From Gemmatimonadota bacterium (lineage in GTDB: Bacteria > Gemmatimonadota > Gemmatimonadetes > Gemmatimonadales > Gemmatimonadaceae): DNA of 64,000 nt. Where the stretch lies: NCBI GenBank assembly GCA_028287305.1, contig JAQBPX010000002.1, positions 1 through 64,000 on the forward strand, written 5' to 3'. The notes beneath the pieces were generated by a model. The model had not been told where the DNA came from, did not search any database, and worked only from the letters and a program-made list of their open reading frames with translations. Both the position numbers and the translations under genes were made by a program. Below, in pieces: positions 37,376 through 54,644 of this stretch (positions are counted from its first letter, which is position 1; every line of letters starts with the position of its first letter).

Positions 37376-37409
37376 TCATCCTGAGCGAAGCGAGGGATCT
37401 GCCGTTCGC
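37372..37409 (+). repeat. 38-nt dispersed REP-like repeat, copy 1
   Basis: The unit begins GTAGTCATCCTGAGCGAAGC and ends TCTGCCGTTCGC. An exact copy lies in the opposite orientation at 49796-49833. The TAG stop of the DUF5916 gene is bases 2-4 of the repeat. Similar CATCCTGAGCGAAGC repeats are known from many bacterial genomes. Confidence 0.85.
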
Positions 37410-37433
37410 AGTCACTGAAACTGCTTCGACTGC

Positions 37434-37605
37434 AACTGCCTTGAGCCACGGGTTTCACTGGCGCGCTGCGCGCGCGACACGAGATTCACCAGTGGCAGTT
37501 ACAAAAGCTCCTCTCGGGCAGCCGAGGGGAGCTTTTTTTGAAGGCGCACCGAACCCGAGTCACGTCGCGAAGCGACGTCAGTGAAACCCGTGGCTCAAGG
37601 CAGTT
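37434..37605. repeat. Large palindrome enclosing an intrinsic terminator (family 2, copy E)
   Basis: The outer arms are perfectly complementary over 27 nt (37434-37460 with 37579-37605; AACTGCCTTGAGCCACGG at the left) and continue imperfectly inward. The core is an intrinsic terminator: AAAAGCTCCTCTCGG and CCGAGGGGAGCTTTT with one mismatch, a 4-nt loop and T7 (37503-37540). The arm sequence recurs in the element at 60675-60836. Confidence 0.88.
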
Positions 37606-37675
37606 GGCAGTTGCAGTTGGTAGTTTCCCGGGCCGCGGTGCAGCGAAGGGTCCCTGTTTGTAGTAGGATTTCCCC

Positions 37676-38923
37676 ATGCCCTACCCCAAGGCGCTCCACA
37701 AGAACCTCACCGTCCAGGTCCTCGTCGCCATCAGCCTCGGCGTGCTGCTCGGCGTGATCTCGCCGGGCACCGCCAAGGCGATGAAGCCGATCGGCGACAC
37801 GTTCGTGAACCTCGTGAAGATGGTGATCGCCCCGATCATCTTCCTCACGATCGTCACCGGCATCGCCAACATGCACGACCTGAAAAAGGTCGGGAAGGTG
37901 GGCGGCAAGGCGTTCCTCTACTTCGAGATCGTCAGCACCTTCGCCCTGGCCATCGGGCTGCTGGTGGTGAACCTCACGAAGCCGGGCGCCGGGCTCGACG
38001 TCTCGAGCATGGCCAAGGGCGACATCTCCGCCTATACCGCGCAGGGCAAGGCGATGTCGTTCGTGGAATTCCTCACGCACATCGTGCCGGGCAGCGTGGT
38101 GGACGCGTTCGCGAAGGGCGACGTCGTGCAGGTGGTGTTCTTCGCCGTGCTCTTCGGCGTGGCGCTGAGCATGACGGGCGAGCATGGCCGCCCGCTCCTC
38201 GACTTCTTCGAGCGCATCGCGCAGGTGTTCTTCCGCATCACCGCAATCGTGATGGTCGTGGCGCCCATCGGCGCCTTCGGCGCGATGGCCTACACCGTGG
38301 GGAATTTCGGCGCCAAGGCGCTGCTCCCCCTCGGCCGCCTGATGCTCGACGTCTACCTCACGATGTTCCTGTTCGTCTGCGTCGTGCTGAACATCATCGC
38401 GCGGATGTACGGCTTCTCGCTCTGGAAGTTCCTCCGCTACATCAAGGACGAGATCCTCCTCGTGCTCGGCACCAGCAGCAGCGAGGTGGCGCTGCCGCGC
38501 ATGCTCGACAAGCTCGAGCGCTTCGGCTGCTCCAAGGCCGTGGTGGGGCTCGTGATCCCCGCCGGCTACTCCTTCAACCTCGACGGAACCTCCATCTACC
38601 TGAGCATGGCAACAATTTTCATCGCCCAGGCGTTCAAGGTGGACCTCTCCATCGGCCAGCAGGTATCGCTGCTGATGGTGCTCATGGTGACGAGCAAGGG
38701 CGCGGCCGGCGTCACGGGCTCCGGCTTCATCGTCCTTGCGAGCACGCTTTCCGCCCTCAAGGTGGTGCCGGTGGAGGGGCTGGCGCTGGTGCTCGGCGTG
38801 GACCGCTTCATGAGCGAGGCGCGCGCGATCGTGAACCTGATCGGCAACGGAGTGGCTACGGTGGTGATTGCGAAGACGGAGAACGCGTTCGACGAGGCGA
38901 AGCACCAGGAAGCCATCGCATGA
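37676..38923 (+). CDS. Dicarboxylate/amino acid:cation symporter (DAACS, DctA/GltP family)
   Basis: A 415-residue inner-membrane symporter for C4-dicarboxylates, glutamate or aspartate, driven by sodium or protons. Family motifs are intact: [15 protein letters not shown] (serine-rich re-entrant loop), [14 protein letters not shown], and [16 protein letters not shown], then [20 protein letters not shown]. Eight or so membrane helices are apparent. AGGA lies 9 nt before the ATG. Its stop overlaps the next small gene by 4 nt. Substrate choice between dicarboxylate and amino acid cannot be made safely by eye. Confidence 0.93.
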
Positions 38924-39330
38924 AGTCGCGCTGGATGCTGCACAAGGACCGCTACGTCATGTACCTGGACTACGCCGACTTCGGCAACCGGCTCGAGGAG
39001 CTGCGGGTCGAGGTGGTCGAGGCTGACGGCCTGATCCTCAAGGAGCGCCCGAACAGCGTCGCAGTGCTGATCGACCTCCGCAACACCGTCGCGAGCGGCG
39101 GGGTGGTGAGAATGTTCAAGGAGAGCTCCGTCATCACCACGCCGTTCATCCGCCGCCACGCGCTGGTGGGCGTGACGGGAATCAAGCGTTACCTGGCCGA
39201 GAAGGTCGCGCTACTCAATCGCCGCCCGATGCGCCTGTTCGACACGCCGGAGCAGGCGCTCGACTGGCTCGTGTCCGACGGCGGCGGGCTGGAAGGCGGC
39301 GACATCATCGGGGCTGCGCCCACCGCGTGA
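38920..39330 (+). CDS. SpoIIAA/STAS-like conserved protein
   Basis: A 136-residue cytoplasmic protein with alternating strands and helices ([53 protein letters not shown]) resembling the SpoIIAA-like STAS fold found in many proteins of unknown function. It is co-translated with the symporter through an ATGA overlap and could modulate it, as STAS domains do for some anion transporters; that is inference. Its last 26 bases overlap the 3' end of the convergent hydrolase gene. Confidence 0.65.
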
Positions 39331-40162
39331 GCTCGTCCGCCACCTCGGCGGGTTCGTCCCAGTGCACCCAGTGGCCAGCCGAGGGATAGTGAATGACCTG
39401 CGTGCTCGCGGGGAGGCCGTTCAACAGCTCGGCGCCGAGGAAGGGATCGCGGTCGCCCCAGAGGATGAGCGTGGGGACGTCGCCCTTCGGGCGGTGCGAA
39501 TGCGCTGCGCCCGCCGAGCGAAAGGCCGCGCGATAGTAGTTGAGGGCGGCGGTGAGCGTGCCGGGCACCGAGAGCGCCGCCTGCTCGTCCGCCCAGTCCT
39601 GCTCGGTGAACGCTGCCTTGCGTTGCACCGCGTGGCGCAGCGAGGCGCGAATGCCGCGCAGCGCGTTGCGTCGCAGCAGGAATTCCGGGAGCAACGGCAG
39701 CTGGAAGAAGAAGATGTACCAGCTCTTCTTCGCCTGGCGCATCGTGCGCAGCGCCTTGAGGAATTGCCTGCTCGGCGGCGAGTTGAGGATCGCGAGGCGG
39801 TCCACCACCTCCGGATGATCGTCGGCGGCGCGCCAGGCGACCGCGCCACCCCAGTCGTGTCCCACGAGGAGCGCGATGCGACGATGGCCGAGTGCGTGCG
39901 CGAGGCCGATGATGTCGAGGGCGACCGTGGATGCGCGGTAGGCGTCGACGTCCTGCGGCTTCGACGAGTTGCCGTAGCCGCGCATGTTCGGCGCGATCAC
40001 TCGGAATCCGGCGGCCGCGAGCGGCTCCATCTGGAAGCGCCAGGTGCGCGCGTGGTCGGGGAAGCCGTGGAGCAGGATGACGAGCGGGCCGGTGCCCAGC
40101 TCGAGGTACTCGAGCTCGATGGTGCCGACGGCGATGCGCTTGAACTCAAGGCGTTCGGTCAT
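39305..40162 (-). CDS. Alpha/beta hydrolase, epoxide-hydrolase-like
   Basis: A 285-residue soluble hydrolase. The ATG at 40162, in a 4-nt overlap with the creatininase stop, is the natural start; the frame upstream is shadow. Motifs are the oxyanion HGFPDHARTW, nucleophile elbow VGHDWGGAVAW (Asp nucleophile, as in epoxide hydrolases and dehalogenases), cap domain, acid segment LILWGDRDPFLG and the His in SAGHWVHWDEP. The Asp nucleophile argues for epoxide hydrolase rather than esterase. Substrate unknown. Its 3' end overlaps the opposite-strand gene by 26 nt. Confidence 0.88.
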   Translation of the reverse strand: MTERLEFKRIAVGTIELEYLELGTGPLVILLHGFPDHARTWRFQMEPLAAAGFRVIAPNMRGYGNSSKPQDVDAYRASTVALDIIGLAHALGHRRIALLVGHDWGGAVAWRAADDHPEVVDRLAILNSPPSRQFLKALRTMRQAKKSWYIFFFQLPLLPEFLLRRNALRGIRASLRHAVQRKAAFTEQDWADEQAALSVPGTLTAALNYYRAAFRSAGAAHSHRPKGDVPTLILWGDRDPFLGAELLNGLPASTQVIHYPSAGHWVHWDEPAEVADELTRWAQPR

Positions 40163-40965
40163 GGCTGCGGGCCTTCTTCGTAGAGGTCGGCGGTGTCGGC
40201 GCTCGCGAGCTCGGTGAGGAATTCTGCGACCCTCTCGCAGATGGCGGTCACGTAGCGCTCGCCCTTCTCGGCCGTGGCGGCCTTGGGGTCGCCGATGCCG
40301 GTGTCGGCGCTGACCTTCGTCCATTGGCGCGGCGCCCATGCCCAGCCCTCGCGGATGCCGGCCAGTTTCGACTGCTTCGCGGCGCCGTTGCCGGCGAGAT
40401 CGAGTGGGAGGACGAGATCGGGTGCGAGGTGCATCATTACGCTGGTCTCGAGCTCGCCGGCGTGGTCGCCCTGGTCGTCGAAGTACGCCTTCGGATCGAC
40501 GACCTTGTACCAGTTGATCACGGAGAGGAAGACGCGCGTGCGCGGCTGCAGCTCGCGGATCATCTGGCGAAAGTCGTTGCCACCGTGGCCGTTGAGGATC
40601 ACGAGCTTGTGGATCCCCTGTGCGTCGAGCGACTGGCACACGTCAGCGAGCACGAGCGCCTGCGTCGAGGGGTTCATGTTGATGCAGAGCGGGATGTCGA
40701 GCTGGCCCGTCTGCACGCCGAAGGGGATGGTAGGCAGGACGATGGCCCTTGCTCCCTCGAGCCAGGCGAGACGCGCCGATTCGGCAGCGATGCGCTCGCT
40801 CTCGATGACGTCGGTGCCGTAGGGGAGGTGGAAGTTGTGCGCCTCCGTGGCGCCCCAGGGGAGGAGCGCGACGTCATATTTCGTGTGGCTGACGGAGTGC
40901 CAGTTGGTCTCGGCCAACAACCAGGGTTTCGGGGGCACGGGTAGCGGGGGCTCGGGTACGACCAA
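40159..40965 (-). CDS. Creatininase-family amidohydrolase
   Basis: Up to 268 residues. Metal-binding motifs of the family are present: LLPWGATEAHNFHLPYGTD (Glu, His, Asp), LNGHGGNDF, and DQGDHAGELETS. The family includes creatinine amidohydrolase, riboflavin-pathway FAPy deformylase and mycofactocin MftE; which one applies is not evident, and no mycofactocin genes are near. The open frame starts at a TTG at 40965; a GTG at 40938 is also possible, and the conserved part begins near PWLLAETNW. It is divergent from msrB and overlaps the hydrolase gene downstream. Confidence 0.85.
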   Translation of the reverse strand: MVVPEPPLPVPPKPWLLAETNWHSVSHTKYDVALLPWGATEAHNFHLPYGTDVIESERIAAESARLAWLEGARAIVLPTIPFGVQTGQLDIPLCINMNPSTQALVLADVCQSLDAQGIHKLVILNGHGGNDFRQMIRELQPRTRVFLSVINWYKVVDPKAYFDDQGDHAGELETSVMMHLAPDLVLPLDLAGNGAAKQSKLAGIREGWAWAPRQWTKVSADTGIGDPKAATAEKGERYVTAICERVAEFLTELASADTADLYEEGPQP

Positions 40966-41026
40966 TGCGGAACTACGAGGAGCGCGTGGCGATTATGGCA
41001 CTGATACCCAATGGAGAGAAGCTCTC

Positions 41027-41419: not shown

Positions 41420-44092
41420 CTAGGAGATCTTCATTCCATATTTTCGCGTCTTGAGGGAAAAGGAGGCCGTACCCCCTTCCAGATGTTGGATTACTGCGTC
41501 CTTCACGACGGGTCTGTCCATTGCGCCATGGGTGGCGAGCAGTGCTTGGGATGCGGAGGCAGTCAGGACGTGATACCGATCAGTGTCCGATGCGACGGCG
41601 ACGGTCGGATTGTGCGTGGTGAGGATAAATTGGCGATTCGACTTTCGTTCGCGAATTTGTAGAGTTACGTCCTGATAGACCGAGGTAATGTCTAGTGCAT
41701 CCTCAGGCTGATCGATTACGATCGGCCGGGTGCCTTCCGCCAGCGCGATGATGAGCAGTGCCGTACACTTCTGCCCAATCGACAGCTGTGCGAGGTCGTA
41801 GAAGTTACCGTCGTCCTTTCTGTAGCGAATGACTGGCCCGTCGTGCACAATGTCCTCATGCTCCAATGCTAGAATGCGCCTGCGGTCCGCGTGCGCTACT
41901 AGATGCCCGACAAGCTTATTGGCGAGCGCCGTAGTGATGGAGGCGCGCTTCGCTAGCGTTGATCCATCGTTTTGCAGCACCAGAGCGACCAACTCGGCAG
42001 GCAAGACGGTGTCACAGACCGACCGGATAGTTGCATCCTGCAAATGGGAACCGGTCTTCAGGACTGTCAATTCGTCGAGATAGTCGCTTCGATTAGCGCT
42101 GGCTGTGATTTGCAAATCGAGCCTGCCGCCCGAGGCGAGCGTAAGCTCTTCGTACTTTCGCCGTCGTAACTCAAATCGACGCGAACTCTCGCTCGCTAGC
42201 TCGACCAACAACTGATCGCGTGCGGTCTTCAATTTCGGGACGCCGTCAATCTGTTTCTGAAGCGTATGCACGGCCTTCCGAAGCGCAGTTCGCTCCTTTT
42301 CCAGGCGATCCTTCTGGGTCAGCAGCGCCGTCTTATCGCCTCCCTGCGCCCGAACCCACTCCTCGTATTGTTTCCTTTTTTTCGCTACGACATCATCCCA
42401 GCTCAGAGCAGCAGAACGGGCCTTCTTTGCCAGTTTAGTGACCGCCGATTCAAGAACCTTAGCGTTTGCCTTCAGCTTCTTCGCATCAGCATCGAGATCC
42501 GAGAGCAACGTTTGTAGTTCTGAATCCGATTCGAAGTCCTTCGGAAGCTTCGGAAGTGAGCACCCACCGATGCTTTCGCTGATCCCTTCAACTGCCTCTT
42601 CGATCTCCTCGACGAATCGGTCGATCTTTGTAAAGCAGTCGGTCTTTGGCTTCAGCTGTTGCAGAACGAGATGCTCCGCGGAAGCAAGCGACTTGTCCAG
42701 TTGCGCGATCTTCTCCTCGTTTGTGGCGAGCGCGCGCTGCCGCCCGTCGATTTCGTCCTCCGCGAGGGAGCAGGCCGCCACGTTTACGTCCAGAGTTCGA
42801 AGCTCCGTTCTTATGGCGCTCACGCGCGCGTCAATTGATGCGAGGTCGAGTAGGCCGTCGATCAGCCTCAGCTGCGCACTATTGTCTTTCGCAATCTCTA
42901 GCGCTTCTGTTTGGCTGTACGCAAGAATTGGGAAAAGTTCACCAAGGTTTCCTTTGAAGGAATTGCCAGACTCCCTGTAGAAGACTTTCATCGGATTGCT
43001 CGCGCCATCGTACCGCCGTTCCACGATCAATACTTGGTCAGCTTCCAGTTGGATCGTGGCCGTGACGATGCCACCAGTACCCAACTGTGCGTTCAACTTC
43101 GACTCCATATCCTGCTCAATGGTTTCAACAGGCGATGGCTGATCGAGAGCGAATCGAATCAACTCAACTAGAAGAGATTTCCCAACGCCCTTTCCGCCGA
43201 TGATCGAATTGAGACCCTCGTGAAATTCAAACTCAATCTTCGCAAGAAAGCCTTGTGATGCTGATATCGCGAGAATACGAGGGTACAGTCGGTCAGGAAC
43301 TAGATCGGAGCCTTCATCCGTAATTATCCGGACGTCTGGATCAAGAAAGCACTGCTTTAAGCCCTCGTGAGTGCACCCATCCATCTTGAACCAGCTGAAT
43401 CGCGCTCCTACTCCATCAATGGAATGCCCATCGTCAGTAATCGGAGTGCGGTTATCAGACGCCCGATAGTAGGCGAGCCGACGCCGGAAATGCGGATCTT
43501 CTCCGCTTAACAGCGGCGAAGTCTTTTTTATGTGTTTGATCTCAACCGCAGCGAGATACGGCGAGTTCATTGTCCGGATGCGCTGCTGGCCGGACATGTC
43601 ATTCATCACGCCCTTGGAGGAATCCGCGTGAGCGAGAATCGCTAGCGCCCCCTCCTCCGCGATGATTTGGAGGGCATCCTCCGGGCTTTTGGGCGAAACT
43701 GCATCCAGACTGCCGTACTGGTCTGAGGGGAAATCCATCTTCGCCAGGAGGTGCTCGATGGACTTCGTTGTCGCCTCTAGCGGAAAGAGGGCAAGAAGGT
43801 GAACTCCCGCCTTGCCTCCTGCGACTGTGAGCTCGACGCCTGGGAAAACGGTCAGACCAGTTCCCTTCGCGGCAGCTTTGAGCTTGTCGACCCAAGCTCC
43901 TGTATTGTGATCCGTGACCGCTATTCCGTGAATGCCACGGGCTATTGTGCGCGATACAAACTCCTCCGCAGAAATAGTCCCGACGTAATCGGCTGAAGCT
44001 GGCGTGTGAACGTGGAGGTCGAGCTTGAGCCACCTCAAGCCGTGATTCTGCTGAGTCATAGAACGCTGGTTGAGAGGATTGGGGCTCGGCAC
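41420..44092 (-). CDS. TrlF-like PHP-domain/SMC-like ATPase (defence-associated)
   Basis: An 890-residue protein. The N-terminal PHP phosphoesterase domain (about 20-260) has LDLHVHTPASAD, AVTDHN and ILAHADSSKG. An ABC/SMC-type ATPase has Walker A GGKGVGKS (299-306), a coiled-coil middle (about 430-680), signature LSIGQ (770-774), Walker B IVIDQPEDALD (791-802) and switch TTHN (826-829). All catalytic motifs are intact. This combination matches the family known to me as TrlF, found in defence islands. A second start at 44059 (MTQQNHG) is possible; neither start has a ribosome site. Base composition is clearly lower in GC than neighbours. It is divergent from the TIR-like gene. Confidence 0.85.
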   Translation of the reverse strand: MPSPNPLNQRSMTQQNHGLRWLKLDLHVHTPASADYVGTISAEEFVSRTIARGIHGIAVTDHNTGAWVDKLKAAAKGTGLTVFPGVELTVAGGKAGVHLLALFPLEATTKSIEHLLAKMDFPSDQYGSLDAVSPKSPEDALQIIAEEGALAILAHADSSKGVMNDMSGQQRIRTMNSPYLAAVEIKHIKKTSPLLSGEDPHFRRRLAYYRASDNRTPITDDGHSIDGVGARFSWFKMDGCTHEGLKQCFLDPDVRIITDEGSDLVPDRLYPRILAISASQGFLAKIEFEFHEGLNSIIGGKGVGKSLLVELIRFALDQPSPVETIEQDMESKLNAQLGTGGIVTATIQLEADQVLIVERRYDGASNPMKVFYRESGNSFKGNLGELFPILAYSQTEALEIAKDNSAQLRLIDGLLDLASIDARVSAIRTELRTLDVNVAACSLAEDEIDGRQRALATNEEKIAQLDKSLASAEHLVLQQLKPKTDCFTKIDRFVEEIEEAVEGISESIGGCSLPKLPKDFESDSELQTLLSDLDADAKKLKANAKVLESAVTKLAKKARSAALSWDDVVAKKRKQYEEWVRAQGGDKTALLTQKDRLEKERTALRKAVHTLQKQIDGVPKLKTARDQLLVELASESSRRFELRRRKYEELTLASGGRLDLQITASANRSDYLDELTVLKTGSHLQDATIRSVCDTVLPAELVALVLQNDGSTLAKRASITTALANKLVGHLVAHADRRRILALEHEDIVHDGPVIRYRKDDGNFYDLAQLSIGQKCTALLIIALAEGTRPIVIDQPEDALDITSVYQDVTLQIRERKSNRQFILTTHNPTVAVASDTDRYHVLTASASQALLATHGAMDRPVVKDAVIQHLEGGTASFSLKTRKYGMKIS

Positions 44093-44193
44093 ACTAAGCT
44101 GCCTCGCCTAAACCGTCTCCGGAAGTCACGCAGCGTCTCACAGGATTGGCGATTGACCACTCCCAATGGCCATGCTGGCTTGAGCCCTTGTGG

Positions 44194-44207
44194 ATGATTG
44201 GAATCAT
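44194..44207. promoter_or_regulatory. Perfect palindrome ATGATTGGAATCAT in the divergent island promoter region
   Basis: A 6-bp perfect inverted repeat with a 2-nt centre lies inside the 247-nt gap between the TrlF-like and TIR-like genes. TTGTGG and TATCTA flank it at about 18-nt spacing on the plus strand, so it could be an operator at the TIR-gene promoter. It is short and could be chance. Nothing else is recognisable in the gap. Confidence 0.25.
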
Positions 44208-44339
44208 GGGGTATCTATGGTCACCCTCTGAGGCGGTCTGCGCTCTGCCGAGACTTCGTCACGCATCGGGGTCACGTTGGCGGATCGAGACTCGCCACGC
44301 GAGCCTGGCACCGGACCACGAACAACCGAGAAACACGGG

Positions 44340-45257
44340 ATGCACGTCCACGTATTCTTTTCTTGGCAGTCAGACAATGCAGGAAGGCACGGAAATGTGA
44401 TTGGGCGAGCCCTCGCTCGGGCGACCGACTGCGTGGCTTCGAATGAATCCATTGCATTTCGTCCAACGGTCGATCAGGACACGCGCGGTGTTCCGGGTAC
44501 GCCTTCGATGGTATCGGCGATCCTTCGGAAGATCGATCTTTGTAGCGTGTTTGTGGCTGACGTCACCCTCACATTCGAGGGCATCGAGAGCAGTCGAAAG
44601 TCACCAAACCCCAACGTGCTTCTCGAGCTTGGGTATGCGTTGCGCCGACTGGGCCCAGAAAGAGTTCTCATTGTTCTGGACACTGCTTTTGGTGCGCCCG
44701 AGCAACTGCCGTTCGACCTTCGAGGAAGCAGAGCAATCACATACAACAGCGTCGACGATCCGCAGATAGTGGAAGACCGCCTGTTCGATGAGTTCACGGC
44801 TGCCCTCCGATTAATCCTGAGCAACGCAGGTCCGCCGGCAGACATCGCACCGCCGGTTCATCTGGAGCTTGAGTTCACAAAGGAGCGTCTCGAGCAGGAG
44901 CGTCACGAATATCGACTTCATGTAAGTGTGACAAACCGTGGCAACGAACTGCTTCGCGATTGGGCAGTCGAGGTACGTTTTCCTGGACCACTCCTACACC
45001 CCAATCGCCAGTATCCCGTCGTAGGCAACCACCTTCCTGATCGGCGAGTGGTGATGCGACAGATAGAAGCAAACCATAGCGGTCCGATATACCCAGGCGA
45101 GAAGAAGGAACTGATGGGAATCGACTACATCATGACTCGCGAGTCGCGCGAAGAAGCAGATATGTTGTTTGCGCAAAAAGTTGAAGCATTCTTCTTCGCT
45201 GAGGGAGCGCGCCTAGCCTCAGCTTTTCGATTGGTCCGTGAACTGCAGGTATTCTAG
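44340..45257 (+). CDS. TIR-like (CAP12/Pycsar-type) protein with C-terminal beta-sandwich domain
   Basis: A 305-residue protein; the ATG at 44340 starts directly with the TIR strand MHVHVFFSWQSDN. Further TIR-like features are KIDLCSVFVADVT and NPNVLLELGYALRRLG, with a candidate catalytic Glu at 97, then LPFDLRGSRAITY. TIR domains of this type in defence systems cleave NAD or bind nucleotide signals. Residues about 155-305 look like a beta-sandwich (VHLELEFTKERLEQE, YRLHVSVTNRG, WAVEVRFPGPLLHP, YPGEKKELMGIDYIM), possibly a sensing or binding part. It is followed 114 nt later by the QxK gene on the same strand. Function is inferred. Confidence 0.75.
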   Translation: MHVHVFFSWQSDNAGRHGNVIGRALARATDCVASNESIAFRPTVDQDTRGVPGTPSMVSAILRKIDLCSVFVADVTLTFEGIESSRKSPNPNVLLELGYALRRLGPERVLIVLDTAFGAPEQLPFDLRGSRAITYNSVDDPQIVEDRLFDEFTAALRLILSNAGPPADIAPPVHLELEFTKERLEQERHEYRLHVSVTNRGNELLRDWAVEVRFPGPLLHPNRQYPVVGNHLPDRRVVMRQIEANHSGPIYPGEKKELMGIDYIMTRESREEADMLFAQKVEAFFFAEGARLASAFRLVRELQVF

Positions 45258-45371
45258 CCACGAGTTGCATCGGATCCGAACCATGCGGCGAAGCACGAGC
45301 AGGCAGGGAGTCGAACGAGCAATTCCCCAATACCATTGTCCGAGCGGCTCGGGAGCAAGATCAGGAGTGGA

Positions 45372-46016
45372 ATGAGACTTTCGGAGAAGAGCATCGAACT
45401 CAACTTTTGCGCGCAGCTTCAGTCCCGGCTTGGGAAGCGCATCTTGTGGTTCGGCCTCACTCAAGCACAGGAGAAGAAAGCTGGCTTTGACGCATACACG
45501 CGTGTAGGTGGGCGCCTTCTCATCTTGCAATTCAAGGCGTCCGCGTATGTATTGAAGAATGGCGCACGTCGGTTCCACGCGCCGCATCACCAGCTCGACG
45601 CACTAAGAAAATCGGGGCGTAGGCGACAGAACAGCGTCTTCTATGTATTTCCCGGAATTGGCACCTCGGTGGAGTTGGCCCGCGATCCGGACTTGGTGAA
45701 GCAATGCCAATTTCTTGATGCCGGTAGCATCCCCGATTCGGTGAAGCAACCGACGAGGCCCGACGGCAAGCCGCGCAAGAATAAAGTTCATCACGTTGAT
45801 GTTTCGGCAGGAATAGCAGTAATTCATTCGGAACCGGTAACAGCGCGTCTCGTCGGCGCGCGACAACTTCTTGAATCGCCGAGTCGTGGATCGCGCGATG
45901 ACATGACGCTTGAAATCGGACCCATCACAGCCGCACTTGAAGGCGAATACGAATGGTTCGAGGATGCTACTCGAACGATTCGCGGCGCTGCATTGGCCGC
46001 GATAATTCTAGATTAG
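45372..46016 (+). CDS. Unrecognised island protein with PD-(D/E)xK-like pattern (QxK variant)
   Basis: A 214-residue soluble protein. AGGAG 5 nt before the ATG at 45372 decides the start over a TTG at 45336. The N-terminus shows a helix with E9 (SEKSIELNFCAQLQ), then GFDAYTRVGGRLLILQFKAS, giving D40 and Q53-x-K55. This is the order E...D...QxK of Mrr-like nucleases. The middle has HAPHHQLDALRKSGRRRQNS, and strands such as NSVFYVFPGIG and HHVDVSAGIAVIHS follow. I do not recognise the family, and the nuclease reading is by eye only. Lower GC and its place beside the TIR-like gene suggest a shared defence unit. Confidence 0.4.
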   Translation: MRLSEKSIELNFCAQLQSRLGKRILWFGLTQAQEKKAGFDAYTRVGGRLLILQFKASAYVLKNGARRFHAPHHQLDALRKSGRRRQNSVFYVFPGIGTSVELARDPDLVKQCQFLDAGSIPDSVKQPTRPDGKPRKNKVHHVDVSAGIAVIHSEPVTARLVGARQLLESPSRGSRDDMTLEIGPITAALEGEYEWFEDATRTIRGAALAAIILD

Positions 46017-46157
46017 AAATGAGATGGGGATGTCGGCGGTCTTGTATTCGCATAGTTACGGAGCTGGAACGACTACTTCGTAACTTGAGGAGTCTGCGTC
46101 CCGCGAGAAGTGGTACGTTGGATTGTGTCGACCGCCGGCGAGTGAGTGTTCGCCCAC

Positions 46158-47015
46158 TCAAACGGCGCTTAGTGCAAACCGTGTAATCTCCGGCCGAACA
46201 TTGAACCTTACCCGCTGCAAATGCCCCAGCCCGCGGTTGATGTAAAGCCGCCTTCCCGTCCCCAGCACCTCCACCTCCCCCGCCACATACCGCCGGTTCT
46301 TCACCGGTAGCAACGGCGGCGGCAGGAACGGCGGCTTGCACTGCCCGCCATGTGTGTGCCCTGCCAGCACCCACCCTCGATAGTCGCCCCACTGCAGTTC
46401 GTCCTGGGCATCGGGGTTGTGACACAGTACGATCGCGGCATCACCCGAGCGCTGCGCCAGCGCCCGCATCGGGTCAGCGGTCCCGCTCCACAGGTCATCC
46501 GTCCCGACGAAGTCGAGCCCCTGCACGTTCACCGACTCGTTGCGCAGCACGTGCACGCCCGCGTGCTCCGCGATGCCCTGCACTCGCCCCGCGACCTTCA
46601 TGTCGCGCCAATATAACCCGTAGTCGTGGTTGCCGAGCACGCCGATCGTCGCCAGGCGGCCCCGCGGCATGTGCCGCATCACGAGCTTCAACTGCTGCCA
46701 CTGCTCTTCCTGGCGGTTGCCGCGGTGCGTGAAGAAGTCGCCCGTGATCACCAGGATGTCCGGTGCGAGCGCGGCCACGCGCGCGAAGCTCTCGATGATG
46801 TACGAGTCGTCCACGTCGGGGCCGATGTGGATGTCGCTCAGCTGGATCATGGTCTTGCCGACCAGCGACGCCGGCAGGTTTTCAATCGGCAGGTCGCGCT
46901 CCACCACCTTGACCCAGTGCGGCTCCACGCGCCAGGTGTATCCGCCGAGCGCAGCGGCGCCCGCGAAGGCGCCAAGCACTGCGCGTCCAACAAAATCGCG
47001 TCGCGAGATCGACAT
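46158..47015 (-). CDS. Tat-exported metallophosphoesterase
   Basis: A 285-residue binuclear-metal phosphoesterase. The ATG at 47015 opens a twin-arginine signal (SISRRDFVGRAVLGAFAG), so it is preferred to the upstream start. Motifs are QLSDIHIG, VITGDFFTHRG, VLGNHDYG, CHNPDA and LAGHTHGGQ, as in the YkuE/YaeI group thought to act on lipid or envelope phosphates. It follows the barrel-SnoaL gene by 4 nt and is probably co-transcribed. Its 3' end faces the island across 141 nt, where a hairpin of AGTTACGGAG with CTTCGTAACT lies at 46057-46086. Confidence 0.9.
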   Translation of the reverse strand: MSISRRDFVGRAVLGAFAGAAALGGYTWRVEPHWVKVVERDLPIENLPASLVGKTMIQLSDIHIGPDVDDSYIIESFARVAALAPDILVITGDFFTHRGNRQEEQWQQLKLVMRHMPRGRLATIGVLGNHDYGLYWRDMKVAGRVQGIAEHAGVHVLRNESVNVQGLDFVGTDDLWSGTADPMRALAQRSGDAAIVLCHNPDAQDELQWGDYRGWVLAGHTHGGQCKPPFLPPPLLPVKNRRYVAGEVEVLGTGRRLYINRGLGHLQRVRFNVRPEITRFALSAV

Positions 47016-47019
47016 CAGG

Positions 47020-48048
47020 TCAGGGCAGCGCCACAGATTTGCATCCCACTCCTTCACACGCGAGCGCGACGAACACTTCGCTGCGAATGAGCCAGCGTCC
47101 ATCTCGGCGCACCCACTGGGCCGAGTAGCGACCGGTGATAGTGCGCGGCCCGTTGGGCGAGCCGATGTTCGCGCGCCACGTTCCCGTCTCGAAGGCGAGT
47201 GGCCACACGGCGCTCACGTCGACGCCGGTCGTCTCACGCGTGTACACCACGCTCGTGTCGCTGCGATCGGTTCCCACGATGCGCAGGTACTCCGCGCGCC
47301 CCACACCGAGCGCGCCCAGGCCGCGCCGAATGGTCACGTCATCCGTCCAGTAGCTCGCGGTCGCGGCGGTGTCGCCGCGCGCCATCGCATCGTTTTGCGC
47401 GAGGCGCGCGCGTCGTATTGCATCGACGTCAGTCGTCAGGCTCACTGCAGGCTCAACGGGCACGCTTCCTACGTTGGTGCTGTTGACGAACCGGAGCGTC
47501 ACGCCGAATCGGAGCAGAAGCAGCCCGAATCCGTCGGTCGACGGACGGGAATCGGCGCGTGCCTCGAAGGTCGTTCCCACACGACTGCCGCGAGCGCCGA
47601 TCGCGATCGAGGCATGCGGACTGAACGATCCTCCGAGGTCGCTGCGGCTCACGTTCATGTACGAGAATCCACCACCGAGTGCGACGAGGCTGCCCTCGCC
47701 CCTGAACCAGCGATGCTGGTAGGTCGCGCCGAATGCGCTGGTGCTCGGTGCGGGGCCGGTGCATCCCTGGGCAACCGAACCGGATGCCGGAACGACGCAG
47801 GGCGTATCCTTGCGAACGGTTGCGCTCCATTCGAGCTCGAACGCTCCCGGCGCATTCGCTCCACTGGAAAAGCCGATTCCGGCGCGACCGCCGAGTGTCA
47901 GCTGTCCATCGACTCCGGCGCCGCTCACGTACACGGGGCCCGCGGAGATGAACGGATAGACCTCCTGCGCCTCGAGCGACGCTGCCGCTCCAGTGAGGAG
48001 CACAGCCATCATCGCGAACGCACGCCGCGCTCGGCTTCCATGTGTCAT
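47020..48048 (-). CDS. Exported beta-barrel-like protein fused to a SnoaL/DUF4440 domain
   Basis: A 342-residue protein. The ATG at 48048 has GGAG 8 nt upstream and a signal peptide (RRAFAMMAVLLTGAAASLEA). Residues about 35-190 are alternating strands with aromatic ends (VYPFISAGPVYVSGAG, AFGATYQHRWFRGEGSLVAL, GFGLLLLRFGVTLRF), as in small outer-membrane barrels. Residues about 210-335 form an NTF2-like domain of DUF4440/SnoaL type (ARLAQNDAMARGDTAATASY, WTDDVTIRRG, GRYSAQWVRRDGRWLIRSEV). The combination is uncommon, and I cannot say whether the NTF2-like part faces the periplasm. Function unknown. Confidence 0.65.
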   Translation of the reverse strand: MTHGSRARRAFAMMAVLLTGAAASLEAQEVYPFISAGPVYVSGAGVDGQLTLGGRAGIGFSSGANAPGAFELEWSATVRKDTPCVVPASGSVAQGCTGPAPSTSAFGATYQHRWFRGEGSLVALGGGFSYMNVSRSDLGGSFSPHASIAIGARGSRVGTTFEARADSRPSTDGFGLLLLRFGVTLRFVNSTNVGSVPVEPAVSLTTDVDAIRRARLAQNDAMARGDTAATASYWTDDVTIRRGLGALGVGRAEYLRIVGTDRSDTSVVYTRETTGVDVSAVWPLAFETGTWRANIGSPNGPRTITGRYSAQWVRRDGRWLIRSEVFVALACEGVGCKSVALP

Positions 48049-48128
48049 CAAGTTGCTCCGGGGGTCAGCACAAGCTCGTAAACATCGTGGGTTCAACATC
48101 TTGGCTCCCGAATCGGCTAGATTCAAGC

Positions 48129-49595
48129 ATGACTGGTACACAACCGACATTCAATTCGCTCAAGCTCCATCCCAACCTGCTCAAGGGGATCAAGGAGCTG
48201 GGCTTCACGCGTCCCACGCCCATCCAGGGCGACGCGATTCCGCCGGCGCTCGAAGGGCGCGACCTCCTCGCCTGCGCCATGACCGGCTCGGGCAAGACCG
48301 CCGCCTTCCTGCTCCCGATCCTGCACCGCCTCATGGAGAAGCCGCGCGGCACCACGCGCGCGCTGGTCGTCACGCCAACCCGCGAGCTCGCCGCGCAGAT
48401 CCTCCAGGTGCTCGAGGAGCTCGCCGTCCACACGCCGATCACTGGCGCGGCCGTGTTCGGCGGCGTCGGCATGGGGCCACAGGAGCACGCATTCCGCAGC
48501 GGCGTCGACGTCCTCATCGCGACGCCGGGCCGGCTCCTCGACCACCTCAAGTCGCCATACGCGAAGCTCGACAAGATCGAGATCCTGGTGCTCGACGAAG
48601 CCGACCGCATGCTCGACATGGGCTTCCTGCCCGACATCAAGCGCATCATCAGCAAGGTGCCACCCAAGCGGCAGACGCTGTTCTTCAGCGCCACCATGCC
48701 GGGCCCCATCGGCGCACTCGCGCGCGAGATGCTCGACAAGCCCGCCACGATCAACCTCGAGCGGAAGTCGGCGCCTGCCGTCGGCATCACGCAGGCGATT
48801 TATCCGGTCGCCGCCGACCTCAAGTCGGCGCTCCTCACGGAGCTGCTCAAGCGCGGCATCATGCAGCAGGCGCTCGTGTTCACGCGCACCAAGCACCGCG
48901 CCAATCGCGTCGCCGAGTTCCTGATCAAGAAGGGGATCAAGGCGGAGCGCATCCACGGCAACCGCTCGCAGGCGCAGCGCACACAGGCGCTCGCCGGCTT
49001 CAAGGATGGGACGTACACGGTGCTCGTCGCGACGGACATCGCCGCGCGCGGCATCGACGTCGACCAGCTCGAGCACGTGGTGAACTTCGACGTACCCATG
49101 GTGCCGGAGGATTACATCCACCGCGTGGGTCGCACCGCTCGCGCCGAAGCGACGGGTGACGCGTTCACCTTCGTGTCGCCGGAAGAAGAGGGCGAGCTCT
49201 CGGCCATCGAGCGCGCAGTGGGCAAGCGCCTGCCGCGCGTGACGCTGCCGGACTTCGACTACAAGGCCCGCTCGCAGGAGAAGCTCGAGGTGCCGCTGGC
49301 CGAGCGCATCGCGCAGATCCGCGCGAAGAAGGCGGAGGATCGCCAGCGCGCCAAGGCGAAGCTCGAGCGCAAGGAGTCGGGGTCGCGCGGTGGTTCGAGC
49401 TCGAGTCGCGGGCCGTCGACGCGGTCGTCGTCTTCCACGTCCGGCTCATCTCGGCCAGCAGCTCCTGCTGCGCGCGGCGAAGCGCCAGCGCGTGGCGAGG
49501 GTGGGTCGCGCGGGGCTGATGACCAGAAGCGTCGTCGTCGTGGTGGACGTGGGCGTAGCGGTGGCGGGTCTGGGTCTGGTCCATATTCAGGCTAA
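48129..49595 (+). CDS. DEAD-box RNA helicase (RhlE-like)
   Basis: A 488-residue ATP-dependent RNA helicase for ribosome assembly or RNA turnover. It has the Q-motif region FTRPTPIQGDAIPPALEGRD, Walker A AMTGSGKT, PTRELA, GGVGMG, TPGRLLDHL, DEAD in LDEADRMLDMGF, SAT in FFSATMP, then ATDIAARGIDVDQLEHVVNF and HRVGRTAR. The C-terminal 100 residues are charged, then Ser/Gly/Arg-rich (RGGSSSSRGPSTRSSSSTSG), an RNA-binding tail. The ATG at 48129 matches the family N-terminus (FNSLKLHPNLLKGIKELGF). Divergent from the barrel gene by 80 nt; a terminator-palindrome follows. Confidence 0.95.
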   Translation: MTGTQPTFNSLKLHPNLLKGIKELGFTRPTPIQGDAIPPALEGRDLLACAMTGSGKTAAFLLPILHRLMEKPRGTTRALVVTPTRELAAQILQVLEELAVHTPITGAAVFGGVGMGPQEHAFRSGVDVLIATPGRLLDHLKSPYAKLDKIEILVLDEADRMLDMGFLPDIKRIISKVPPKRQTLFFSATMPGPIGALAREMLDKPATINLERKSAPAVGITQAIYPVAADLKSALLTELLKRGIMQQALVFTRTKHRANRVAEFLIKKGIKAERIHGNRSQAQRTQALAGFKDGTYTVLVATDIAARGIDVDQLEHVVNFDVPMVPEDYIHRVGRTARAEATGDAFTFVSPEEEGELSAIERAVGKRLPRVTLPDFDYKARSQEKLEVPLAERIAQIRAKKAEDRQRAKAKLERKESGSRGGSSSSRGPSTRSSSSTSGSSRPAAPAARGEAPARGEGGSRGADDQKRRRRGGRGRSGGGSGSGPYSG

Positions 49596-49612
49596 GGCAA
49601 CGAAACAAATTG

Positions 49613-49769
49613 GCCGCGGTGCAACGCGGTACAACGCTGAACTGCTCGTCGTTGCAGTTCACAAAGCAAAGCAGGACCCCAATGTGTTATCGGGGTCCTG
49701 TTTTGCTCTTGATGGCGTCCCGAGGTGCGGTTCAGCGTGGGCCGAAGGCCCACCGCGTTGCACCGCGGC
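49613..49769. repeat. Large palindrome enclosing an intrinsic terminator (copy F)
   Basis: The left arm GCCGCGGTGCAACGCGGT at 49613-49630 pairs with ACCGCGTTGCACCGCGGC ending at 49769, and ACGCTGAAC pairs with GTTCAGCGT further in. The core (49665-49707) is a terminator with 16-bp arms, AGCAAAGCAGGACCCC and GGGGTCCTGTTTTGCT, one mismatch and an 11-nt loop. It lies between two convergent genes. Confidence 0.85.
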
Positions 49770-49795
49770 TCATTGGTTAGTTCGGCCCCGGCGCA

Positions 49796-49833
49796 GCGAA
49801 CGGCAGATCCCTCGCTTCGCTCAGGATGACTAC
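49796..49833 (-). repeat. 38-nt dispersed REP-like repeat, copy 2
   Basis: An exact inverted-orientation copy of 37372-37409. As in copy 1, bases 2-4 of the repeat (TAG) are the stop codon of the adjacent gene, here the DUF885 protein at 49830. Confidence 0.85.
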
Positions 49834-51644
49834 TTGGCGGTGCGCTTCGTCCTCCCAACCCACTCCCGCACGCGCTTCTCCAGCACATCCAGCGGCACCG
49901 CGCCTCCGCCGAGCACCACATCGTGAAACGCGCGCTCATCGAACTTCGCCCCCAGCGACTTCTCCGCCTCGGTGCGCAGCCCCCTGATCCGCAGCTGCCC
50001 GATCTTGTACGCGAGCGCCTGGCCCGGGTCGTTGATATAGCGGTCCACCTCATTCACTATATCCGTCTCGGTCTTCGCGCTGTTCGCCTTGAAGTACGCG
50101 ATCGCGGAGTCCCGGCTCCATCCGTACTCGTGCAGCCCGGTGTCGAGAACGAGCCGGATCGCGCGCCACATCTCGTACGTCATCTGCCCGAACCTGCTGT
50201 ACGGGTCCGTGTAGAGCCCGATCTCGCCACCAAGGCTCTCGGCGTACAATCCCCACCCTTCTATGAAAGCGGTGGTGCCGCCATAGCGGCGGAACTCCGG
50301 CACTCCCTCCAGCTCCTGCGCGAGCGCGATCTGCAGGTGATGCCCCGGCACCGACTCGTGCATCGATAGCGCCTCCATCTCCCACTTGGGCCGCGCGTCG
50401 AGCTTGTAGGTGTTCACGAAGTACGTGCCCGCACGCCCCACATCCGGCGCGCCCTGCTGGTAGTAGGCAGTCGTGACCGAGGGAGCAGAGCTCGACGGAA
50501 TCGTCGCGACGCCATACGTCAATCTCGGCAGCTTCCCGAAGATGCGCGGCAGCTCGGGGTCGATGCGCTTGACGATGTCCCGATACGCGCGCACGAGGCT
50601 CGCCGAGTCTGTGAAGAAGAACTGCGGGTCGGTGCGGAGGAAATGCACGAACGCCTGGAAGTCCCCGTGAAATCCGACGGCCGAGATCAGCGAGTCCATC
50701 GACGTCCGGATGCGCGCGACTTCCTTGAGGCCGAGCGCGTGAATCTCCTTCGGCGTCATTCCCGTGGTCGTCTGCACCTTGGCCTTGTACGCATACCACG
50801 CCTTCCCATTCGGCAGCTCGCTCATGCCGATCGACTCGCGCGCGCCGGGGATGTACGTGTTCGCCAGGTAGTCGCGAAAGTCGTGCAGCGCCGGCTCGAG
50901 CGCGTGAAAGGCCGAGACCGCGCGCGACGTCAGGCGGTCGCGGTCCTCCTGCGACATGCCCTCCGGCATGTGGCGGAAGTCCAGCAGCAGCGGGCTCGCC
51001 ATCGGATCACTCGTGAGCAGGTCGTCCACCTGCCTGGGGACGTCGCGCAGCGTGACCGCGGGCGGCGTCACCTTGTCGGCCAGCCCCTTCTCGAGCAGCT
51101 CGCGCGTCTGCGTGAACACCGCCGGCGCAGACTCGAGGCGCTTCAGCAGGTTCTCGTAGTCCGCCACGGTGGAGTGCGGCGAGGCGAGGAACAGGTTGAC
51201 GACGTACTGCTGTGGCCCGCCCTCCTGCGACACCGCGAGCAGCTCACTCGGGAACTTCGTGCCCTCGACGTTCAGCTGTGACTGTCGAAGGAACAGGTCG
51301 TAGTTCAGCTGGTCGCCGGCCGAGAGCTTGTCGCGGTCGATCGAGCGGATTGCGCGCAGGGGTCGCAGCATCTCCTTGTTATACCGCTCGAAGGCCGCGA
51401 GCGAGTTGTCGGACCAGCGATCGTCCTGCCCCGGGTAGCCGTTGTACGTCGCGTTTTCCGGGAAGGTGACGTTGAGATACTCCCAGTCGAGCGCGAGCAG
51501 CTTCTTCAGCCGGGCCGCGTCGGCGCCCTTCGCGGCGGTGATGGCGGCATAGCGCGCGTCGAACTGCGCAGGCGTGTCCTGCGCGACGGCGCGCGCGATG
51601 GGGAGGGCGAGCGCGAGGACAGCGAGGCAACGGAGTATTCTCAT
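49830..51644 (-). CDS. DUF885 family exported peptidase-like protein
   Basis: A 604-residue secreted protein. The ATG at 51644 begins a signal peptide ([20 protein letters not shown]) and is chosen over an upstream frame start. DUF885 features are the early [31 protein letters not shown], the zinc-type motif [14 protein letters not shown] (HExxxGHH), [16 protein letters not shown] and [14 protein letters not shown]. Family members are thought to be metallopeptidases of M32/M3-like fold. It may act with the other exported peptidases here on imported oligopeptides. Its stop codon lies in a 38-nt repeat. Divergent from the fourth Asp-box gene by 72 nt. Confidence 0.88.
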
Positions 51645-51716
51645 GCCCGGATTCTGGCGCGGCCATGCGCCCCCCGCAACTGGACGGGCTTTACACGGGC
51701 CGATACGTTCTGCGTC

Positions 51717-54644
51717 ATGCGAACCTCCTTCCGACTCCTCGCGCTGGCCAGCTTCCTTGGCCACGCCAGCACGCTCTCCGCCCAGGTAGACGCTCAGCTC
51801 CTTTCACCCCTCCGCTGGCGCATGATCGGCCCGCATCGCGGGGGCCGGACCGTGGCCGCCGTGGGCGTGCCGGGCACGCCGACCACCTTCTATCAGGGCG
51901 TGAACAACGGCGGGGTCTGGCGCACCACCGACTACGGGCGCACCTGGGTTCCGATCTTCGACTCGGCGCCCACGGGCTCAGTAGGCTCGATCGCGGTCGC
52001 AGCCTCCGACCCGAACGTCATCTATGTAGGCAGCGGCGAGGGACTGCAGCGCCCCGACCTCTCCACCGGCGACGGCGTCTACAAGACCACCGACGGCGGA
52101 AAGACATGGACGAACACGGGCCTCCGCGACGGTCAGCAGGTGCCCGCGATCATCGTGGACCCGGCCGACGCCAACCGCGCATTCGTCGCCGTGCTCGGCC
52201 ACCCCTACGGGGCCAACACGGAGCGCGGGATCTTCCGCACCACGAATGGCGGGCGCACGTGGGATCGCGTGCTCTACAAGGACGAGAACACGGGCGGGAT
52301 GGACCTCGCGTTCGACCCGTCGAACTCGCAGGTGATCTATTCAGTGTTGTGGTCGGCTCGCCAGTCTCCATGGGAGTCAGGATCGTCGGTCACGCTGTCC
52401 GCCAACAATGGTCTCTACAAGAGCACAGACGGCGGCACCAGCTGGCGCAAGCTCGGCGAGGGACTGCCGAGCGCCGCTGATGGACTGGGGCGCATGGGCA
52501 TCGAGGTCGCGCGCGCGAACCCGAGCCGCCTCTACGCAATTGTCGGAGCGCAGAAGAACGGCGGGCTCTATCGCAGCGACGACGCCGGCGAGCACTGGAC
52601 GCTCGTGAACAACGACGAGCGGGTGTGGGGGCGCGACGGAGACTTCAATGAAGTGCGCGCCGACTCGAAGAACGCCGACGTCATCTACGTCGCGAACGTC
52701 GTGACGTGGAAGTCGGTGGACGGTGGAAAGACCATCCAGTCATTTCGCGGCGCTCCCGGTGGCGACGACTATCACCGCCTCTGGCTGCATCCCACCGACC
52801 CGAAGACGATCCTGCTCACCAGCGACCAGGGCGGCGTGATCACGCAGAATGGCGGCGAGAGCTGGAGCTCATGGTACAACCAGCCGAGCGCGCAGTTCTA
52901 TCACGTAAGCACCGACAACGCATTTCCGTATCGCGTGTGCGGCGGCCAGCAGGAGAGCGGCAGCGCGTGCGTCCAGAGTCGCAGCGACGACGGGCGCATC
53001 ACCTTCGCCAACTGGCATCCCGTGGCGGCCGAGGAGTACGGGTATGCGGTGCCCGATCCGCTGAATCCCGACCTGGTGTACGGCGGCAAGATCAGCCGCT
53101 ACGACCGGCGGAACGGACAGGTGCAGGACGTCAGCCCCAAGGCGTTCCGGGACGCTGACTATCGGCTGGTTCGCACCGCGCCGATCGCGTTCAGCCCGGT
53201 GGACAAGCGCACGCTGTTCTTCGCGAGCAATCGCGTCTGGAGCACGCGCGACGGCGGCGAGCACTGGACGATTCGCTCGCCCGACCTCACGCGCGCGTCG
53301 AGCGCGGTGCCGCCGAACTTCGGCGCATTCGCGGCGCTCGACCCGGCGAAGGGCGTGCATCATGGCGTCGTGTACGCGCTGGCGCCGAGCCCGCTCGACA
53401 TCAACCGCATCTGGGCGGGGACGGATGATGGGCTCGTGCAACTGACGACGGACGGGGGCGCACACTGGCGCGACGTCACGCCGCCGGCGCTGCGCGACAG
53501 GCCGTGGTCCAAGGTCTCGATCATCGACGCGAGCCACTTCGACGCGCACACCGCCTACGTCGCGGTGAACACCTTCCGGCTCGACGACCTGCGCCCGCAC
53601 CTGTTCGCGACGCACGACGATGGAAAGACGTGGACGGAGATCGTGAACGGCATTCCGGCCGAGGGGATCACGAACGTCATTCGAGAGGATCCGGTGCGAC
53701 GCGGGCTGCTCTATGCGGGCACGGAGCGCAGCGTGTTCGTGTCGCTCGACGACGGCGCGCACTGGCAGTCGCTGCGCAACAACATGCCGGCGACGAGCAT
53801 TCGCGACCTGGTGATCAAGGACAACGACCTGGTGATCGCGACGCACGGGCGTTCGTTCTGGATCATGGACGACGTCTCGGCGCTCAGGCAGCTGGCTGCA
53901 GGCATGCCGACGAAACCGGTGCACGTGTTCAAGCCGGCGGTTGCGACGCGCGTGCGATACAGCGCCTGGCCCGACACGCCACTGCCGCCCGATGAACCAG
54001 CAGGAGAGAATCCGCCCGATGGCGCGGTGATCGATTACTGGCTCTCGAGCGCGGCGACCGGCCCGGTGACGATCGAGGTTCGCGATGGCGCCGGCCGCAT
54101 GGTGCGGCGCTACTCGAGCACCGACACGGTGAGCGTGCCGCGCGACACCGGCAACTGGCCGTGGTACTGGCAGCGGCCTGGGCAGCGCGTGGCGACGAGC
54201 GCAGGCGCGCATCGCCTCGTGTGGGACCTTCACTTCACCGCGCCGAAGGGCGACATCAGCTATCCCATCTCCGCCACCCCGTTCAACACGCCTCCGGATC
54301 CCAAGGGACCGTGGGTGAATCCGGGGACGTACAGCATCACGGTGAGGACGCCGAGCTCCGAGGCGACGACGACGCTCACGGTGCGCATGGACCCGCGCGT
54401 GAAGAGCGCGCCGGCCGCGTGGGCGAAGCAGTACGCGCTCTCGCTCAAGGCGTACGATGCGCTGGCGCGCGTGAACGCGGTGGCCGGCGGCACCGATGCG
54501 CAGAAGGCGACGCGCGCTGACGTCGCCGGGCAGTTGCAGGCGCTGCTCGACCTGTTCCAGGGGAGCGAGTTGACGCCTACGTCGCAGGCTGAGGCGGCAC
54601 TTGGTGCGGTGCTGGCGAAGGTGCCGAAGGTCCTTTCGCCGTGA
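51717..54644 (+). CDS. Secreted Asp-box beta-propeller protein (sortilin/VPS10-like), paralogue 4
   Basis: A 975-residue exported protein with signal peptide MRTSFRLLALASFLGHAS. Asp-boxes include RTTDYGRTW, KTTDGGKTW, RTTNGGRTW, KSTDGGTSW, RSDDAGEHW, STRDGGEHW, LTTDGGAHW, ATHDDGKTW and VSLDDGAHW. An Ig-like section (VIDYWLSSAATGPVTIEVRD) and a helical C-terminal segment near 890-970 follow, so its layout is closest to paralogue 1. The family fold is clear but the role is not; the DUF885 peptidase is transcribed divergently from the same 72-nt space. A strong terminator follows 21 nt after the stop. Confidence 0.85.
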   Translation: MRTSFRLLALASFLGHASTLSAQVDAQLLSPLRWRMIGPHRGGRTVAAVGVPGTPTTFYQGVNNGGVWRTTDYGRTWVPIFDSAPTGSVGSIAVAASDPNVIYVGSGEGLQRPDLSTGDGVYKTTDGGKTWTNTGLRDGQQVPAIIVDPADANRAFVAVLGHPYGANTERGIFRTTNGGRTWDRVLYKDENTGGMDLAFDPSNSQVIYSVLWSARQSPWESGSSVTLSANNGLYKSTDGGTSWRKLGEGLPSAADGLGRMGIEVARANPSRLYAIVGAQKNGGLYRSDDAGEHWTLVNNDERVWGRDGDFNEVRADSKNADVIYVANVVTWKSVDGGKTIQSFRGAPGGDDYHRLWLHPTDPKTILLTSDQGGVITQNGGESWSSWYNQPSAQFYHVSTDNAFPYRVCGGQQESGSACVQSRSDDGRITFANWHPVAAEEYGYAVPDPLNPDLVYGGKISRYDRRNGQVQDVSPKAFRDADYRLVRTAPIAFSPVDKRTLFFASNRVWSTRDGGEHWTIRSPDLTRASSAVPPNFGAFAALDPAKGVHHGVVYALAPSPLDINRIWAGTDDGLVQLTTDGGAHWRDVTPPALRDRPWSKVSIIDASHFDAHTAYVAVNTFRLDDLRPHLFATHDDGKTWTEIVNGIPAEGITNVIREDPVRRGLLYAGTERSVFVSLDDGAHWQSLRNNMPATSIRDLVIKDNDLVIATHGRSFWIMDDVSALRQLAAGMPTKPVHVFKPAVATRVRYSAWPDTPLPPDEPAGENPPDGAVIDYWLSSAATGPVTIEVRDGAGRMVRRYSSTDTVSVPRDTGNWPWYWQRPGQRVATSAGAHRLVWDLHFTAPKGDISYPISATPFNTPPDPKGPWVNPGTYSITVRTPSSEATTTLTVRMDPRVKSAPAAWAKQYALSLKAYDALARVNAVAGGTDAQKATRADVAGQLQALLDLFQGSELTPTSQAEAALGAVLAKVPKVLSP

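Follow-up and report, generated by a model that had tools for sequence, protein, structure and literature searches.

Gene A of the window (the whole 64,000-nucleotide stretch of DNA analysed here), which lies at 44340..45257 on the forward strand and encodes 305 residues, is probably a stand-alone, single-gene TIR immune effector in which a TIR-like domain is joined to a sensing beta-sandwich, and gene B, the 214-residue orphan that follows it on the same strand (45372..46016), would be an independent passenger rather than an obligate partner. This reading is built on the domain layout of the gene A protein, its predicted fold, a conserved glutamate (E96), the modular C-termini of its relatives, the finding that no neighbour is conserved, and a locus whose composition is atypical. 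An earlier sequence-only reading suggested that the two genes might constitute an undescribed two-gene system; this has little support, and A and B are better seen as neighbours than as the parts of a new machine.

A probably acquired island of three genes

In their host genome (G000, contig C16; 4.37 Mb in 39 contigs), genes A and B lie beside a divergent gene for a TrlF-family protein with PHP and AAA/SMC-like ATPase parts (41420..44092, reverse strand), and the three together form a stretch of atypical composition, 41420..46016, bounded by msrB, which ends at 41416, and by a metallophosphoesterase gene (46161-47102). The TrlF gene ends 3 bp from msrB, at the island border, and the further gaps are 247 bp between TrlF and A, 114 bp between A and B, and 144 bp between B and the metallophosphoesterase gene. 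Nine 500-bp windows covering 41500-45999 had a GC content of 0.52-0.58, and outside the island it was 0.62-0.69 (windows 36000-40999) and 0.64-0.71 (46500-51999). Similarly, GC3 was 0.62 for TrlF, 0.56 for A and 0.57 for B, compared with 0.74-0.96 for nine flanking genes. Based on these atypical GC and GC3 values, TrlF, A and B look like one island gained by horizontal transfer.

No convincing flanking repeats were found around the island and no sigma-70-like promoter was found within 43900-46200. A possible ribosome-binding site of gene B, AGGAG, was read at 45363..45367 on the forward strand, 4 nt 5' of the ATG. The metallophosphoesterase beside gene B had one strong orthologue (E <= 1e-40; genome G010) among 26 genomes including its own, and because this was the only one of 11 queried window genes to match the 15-kb stretch around that orthologue, no empty island site could be read there. 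The TrlF protein scored 392.6 bits against NCBIfam NF045780 over residues 18-886, above the family cut-off of 350, and the gene is probably independent of A and B; the caution already voiced about this divergent neighbour stands.

The TIR-like domain and beta-sandwich of gene A

A TIR-like domain, recognised by FFSWQSDN and NPNVLLELGYAL, followed by a beta-sandwich had been proposed for gene A; both motifs are present in the translation, and this architecture was supported by structure prediction and fold comparison. The ATG agrees with the start of a 48% identical relative at L018:3084-3998. Our AlphaFold (AF2) model, made with 26 aligned sequences of which only the window protein and the L018 relative fully cover the C-terminal domain, had a mean pLDDT of 81 and consisted of a TIR-like domain at residues ~1-163 (44340..44828, forward strand; placed by fold matches and alignments A2 and A3) and a predicted beta-sandwich, the proposed sensor, at residues ~172-305 (44853..45254, forward strand; placed by secondary structure and pLDDT). 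A conserved FFSWQSD lies near the N-terminus, and PNPNVLLELGYA holds the invariant E96, the candidate catalytic glutamate. Within NPNVLLELGYA this residue was invariant in 26/26 rows of alignment A3 and 32/32 rows of A2, so that gene A has a conserved helix glutamate after NV, the equivalent of which we take to be the catalytic one in TIR NADases. In hmmsearch, NVLLE was aligned with the glutamate of Cap12 NVVFE at a non-significant E of 0.23.

Judged by profile comparison, gene A is TIR-like and of the CAP12/PCTIR branch. CAP12-PCTIR_TIR (PF10137) was its sole Pfam match at E <= 1 (E 1.1e-4), and because the score of 22.6 bits is under the curated cut-off of 24.7, we call the protein TIR-like and not a PF10137 member. 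Against the Cap12 equivalog NF050172 it scored 13.5 bits, far under the cut-off of 450, and DUF4062 gave no Pfam match at E <= 1. NCBIfam names no such TIR-like family, eight of eight proteins having no match at E <= 0.001. The best match in BFVD was a CAP12-type TIR protein. The top Foldseek rows for gene A, glycoside hydrolase family 3 proteins, had an rmsd of ~19 Å and were dismissed, since an alpha/beta domain and an Ig-like one were taken to be stacked there by chance.

The substrate is the chief uncertainty for gene A, since N-glycosidases of related fold fit the model nearly as well as TIR domains do. The N-domain of the model was closest to the TIR domain of SfSTING (7un8_A; Z 13.9, 133 aligned residues, 2.5 Å), with DNPH1 (Z 13.5), MilB (Z 12.9), the SPARTA TIR-APAZ protein (8ifl_A; Z 12.6) and the NDTs (Z ~12) among the further matches (all VIA-align 2), and the scores of SfSTING, DNPH1, MilB and SPARTA TIR-APAZ lie within 1.3 of one another. 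The model thus has a TIR fold, with the related NDT/DNPH1 fold nearly as high. Because the N-glycosidase folds match nearly as well, NAD+ may not be the substrate of gene A, which could instead be a nucleotide N-glycosidase effector (DNPH1/MilB/nucleoside deoxyribosyltransferase-like) that damages the nucleotide pool. We consider this alternative unlikely: Nuc_deoxyrib_tr was matched by two of the 26 aligned family members, but the CAP12/PCTIR TIR model PF10137 was matched by 20 of the 26 (E <= 0.01), and the best PADLOC match of gene A was a TIR effector model (E 1.3e-6).

The C-terminal domain gave no Pfam match at E <= 10. Its sole listed match in fold comparison (VIA-align 2) was the receptor-binding domain of rat alpha-1-macroglobulin (1edy_B; Z 11.5, 114 aligned residues), over model residues 170-303. 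If our reading of gene A is true, an alpha-macroglobulin receptor-binding-like beta-sandwich would be a new sensor type among the domains that arm TIR effectors.

The likeness of gene A to TIR domains, as measured by sequence searches, is well above chance. At E <= 1e-6 it had matches in three of 298 genomes of the phylum, namely its own, G004 (48% identity, residues 4-306) and G125 (the TIR part only), and the G004 protein at L018, from another Gemmatimonadota genome, was the sole full-length relative found. Scanning genome contigs yielded 39 loci, which span one archaeon, Streptococcus, Trichococcus, Bacteroidota, Alphaproteobacteria, Acidobacteria, Verrucomicrobia, Planctomycetes and others, and 68 plasmid records matched gene A, none covering >= 80% of it. 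The C-terminal regions of 44 TIR proteins, gene A included, fell into 13 blastp clusters at E <= 1e-4 (at least 50 residues were needed, six loci with shorter ends were left out, and the duplicates L011, L012 and L013 were removed), and that of gene A clustered with L018 alone. Among 282 neighbouring ORFs of 49 TIR loci, the window excluded, no family occurred in more than three loci; three families reached that number, two of them limited to close Streptococcus relatives and the third found in two of those Streptococcus loci and one other. Given the 13 C-terminal clusters and the lack of a recurrent neighbour, the TIR domain resembles a cassette that is combined with many different sensors and is tied to no fixed partner gene.

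If our reading of gene A is true, these proteins would form a broad TIR-like family with an N-terminal FxSWQSD and at least 13 different, unrelated C-terminal partners, found in bacteria and one archaeal genome, and the family would offer a ready protein set in which to look for the phage parts bound by the individual C-terminal domains. Two local arrangements were also seen among the relatives. In three Streptococcus loci (L020:3917-5941, L021:2547-4574 and L022:3917-5941), a gene of 674-675 residues is followed 36 bp later by the start of the TIR gene, and in L020 this first gene matches PDC-S56, a candidate defence family of PADLOC. On three sphingomonad plasmids (L004, L005 and L007), a tyrosine recombinase/integrase gene lies directly 3' of the TIR gene, and such an adjoining gene may explain how the TIR cassette moves.

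Gene B and its relation to gene A

The coding frame of gene B looks real. It runs for 214 codons without a stop, whereas 0/5,000 shuffles were stop-free, and of the six frames it had the best codon score when only TrlF was used to train the model. This score is weak, as a reverse frame of gene A received 0.063 and the true frame 0.055. The AGGAG close to the ATG also speaks for a real frame. The gene also contains an 18-nt imperfect direct repeat (83%) at 45687-45704 and 45732-45749, 45 nt apart.

An Mrr-like nuclease had been suggested for gene B, and of this the residues E9, D40, Q53 and K55 (numbering starts with the ATG at 45372) are indeed present, in an order that we take to fit the PD-(D/E)xK pattern. 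A loose E-D-QxK motif was no rarer than chance: 98 of the 265 ORFs on this contig contain it, as do 12,715 of 20,000 shuffles of gene B. With hydrophobic strand context added, the motif was found in 1/265 ORFs, gene B itself, and in 72/20,000 shuffles, and with a further G-hydrophobic-D in the same single ORF and in 12/20,000 shuffles; these strict forms are suggestive only, because they were written after seeing gene B. Beyond the residues the nuclease assignment was not upheld. There was no Pfam match at E <= 10, and hhalign against 11 Mrr_cat domains (of 12 found in related genomes) gave a probability of 0.24 over 15 columns that do not include the D-QxK part; 27 of 60 shuffled B sequences equalled or exceeded this result, whereas each of the 11 Mrr_cat members reached 95-100 when left out in turn. 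The AF2 single-sequence model of gene B had a pLDDT of 29 and held no information for or against the alpha-beta-beta-beta-alpha-beta core of the PD-(D/E)xK superfamily. If gene B encodes an enzyme, a nuclease would be the leading guess, drawn from four residues.

Our search for relatives of gene B was similarly unproductive. NCBIfam, PADLOC, PHROGs and PDB sequences gave no match, nor did plasmids at E <= 0.01 or phages at E <= 0.1; at E <= 10, tblastn returned one plasmid and six phage records (best E 4), which we judged to be noise. A peptide-pattern search of viral and genome contigs, a method that detects close relatives only, found none, and the pattern FYVFPxIG hit eight viral contigs, none of them B-like. 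In slightly overlapping genome samples searched at E <= 1e-4 (E <= 0.001 for the sample of 17), gene B was found in 1/395 (its own genome), 0/17, 0/349, 0/199, 0/115, 0/121 and 0/169; for the samples outside the phylum, a negative answer carries no weight unless some genome is positive. In a sample of 99 genomes at E <= 0.001, two weak matches were found besides the gene's own genome, and these are the sole matches that would favour relatives of gene B. That in G016 (L002; E 1.3e-4, 39% over residues 117-193) covers only ~70 residues at an ORF start and is presumably part of a PIN/VapC toxin, judging by the sequence of the ORF, and that in G001 (L003; E 9.7e-4) lies in a compositionally biased open frame of 948 residues; both were put down to chance. 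The same two were the best matches of gene B (E 5.5e-5 and 9.6e-4) when phmmer was run with filters off on all ORFs of 54 loci, and every other match, those in all TIR loci included, had E 1.5 or worse.

Whether A and B belong together was approached through the neighbourhoods of gene A relatives, and repeated A-B adjacency in unrelated genomes was not found. The one full-length relative of gene A (1/1) sits in G004 between a serine-hydrolase-like and a lipoprotein-like gene, both named from their translations, with neither B nor TrlF adjoining, and G004 had no TrlF match at E <= 1e-30. The GC3 of this relative is 0.54, compared with 0.80 for the preceding hydrolase gene and 0.61 for the lipoprotein-like gene that follows, as if it had arrived alone, without B. 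That this type of gene travels alone rests on n=1, because one full-length relative was found, and the lowered GC3 of the gene following the relative speaks against a stand-alone A. No B-like ORF was present near any of the 49 TIR loci, and literature listings of open PMC papers, those on TrlF included, named no pair of TIR with beta-sandwich or of TIR with nuclease.

Two larger units have to be weighed against the reading of gene A as a stand-alone effector. A true two-gene system, in which B would sense or cut invading DNA and A would be the NAD-depleting arm, agrees with much of the layout: the two genes are co-directional and 114 bp apart within one island, with alike, low GC3, which fits co-acquisition as a unit, and the E-D-QxK residues of B stand in a strand-like context. 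Against it are the G004 relative without B, the TIR loci without any B-like ORF, and a gene B for which no homologue, nuclease profile or fold support was detectable in these searches, and we regard such a system as quite unlikely. The more specific form of the idea, a rare, undescribed system with a divergent QxK nuclease of no known family that would license a TIR plus beta-sandwich NADase on detecting or cutting foreign DNA, seems very unlikely. Extending the unit to TrlF, so that TrlF, A and B would make up a single composite module of defence genes with its transcription starting in the 247-bp divergent region, would account for the atypical composition common to the three amid ordinary genes. 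However, three weaker TrlF homologues (26-30% identity), found in a set of 139 related genomes that leaves out its own, had no relative of A or B in their short flanks (best E: A, 0.033; B, 0.48), and the relative of A in G004 has no adjoining TrlF. A composite module is highly improbable in our estimation.

Proposed mechanism and known systems

For the preferred reading, gene A as a stand-alone effector, a course of action can be proposed by analogy. SpbK is a single protein whose sensor docks on the phage portal, clusters the TIR domains and starts NAD+ breakdown (PMC12847820), and Swarozyc acts in the same way (PMC13174449, a preprint), with a TIR-like DUF4062 domain, a portal-binding auxiliary domain and a conserved Glu. 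For DndH, a comparative study (PMC10853773) suggests that invader recognition may involve the binding of DNA sugar or protein by beta-sandwich domains. From the two-part anatomy of SpbK and Swarozyc together with this suggestion for DndH, we infer for gene A steps of sensing, clustering and NAD+ loss. The TIR-like domain would be an NAD(+)-consuming enzyme, inactive as a monomer or dimer; a phage component would bind the beta-sandwich as the trigger and cluster the TIR domains; the clustered domains would break down NAD+; and the loss of NAD+ would stop the infected cell, as in abortive infection. The catalysis, the trigger and the abortive outcome are proposals, as is any activity of gene B.

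Several known systems can be compared with this locus. Mrr_cat nucleases (PF04471) share the E...D...QxK order with gene B, but no profile similarity was detected. The CAP12/Pycsar-effector TIR domains (PF10137; SfSTING, PDB 7un8) have the TIR fold in common with gene A and an aligned NVxxE, whereas gene A is below the Pfam and Cap12 equivalog cut-offs and has a predicted beta-sandwich as its second domain, and no CD-NTase or cyclase was found among eight window proteins scanned. The TIR-APAZ protein of SPARTA is alike in TIR fold, with Z up to 12.6, but the same eight proteins gave no APAZ or Argonaute match. Swarozyc (PMC13174449) resembles gene A in having a TIR-like domain, a second domain and a conserved Glu, and differs in carrying DUF4062, for which gene A gave no match. 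SpbK likewise consists of a TIR domain, an NADase in SpbK and putatively so in gene A, and one second domain, but the SpbK sensor is an N-terminal four-helix bundle (PMC12847820), whereas the second domain of gene A is C-terminal and a predicted beta-sandwich. What is left is a different, proposed sensor attached to a familiar type of TIR effector, within a small and probably acquired island that also holds TrlF and an orphan gene.
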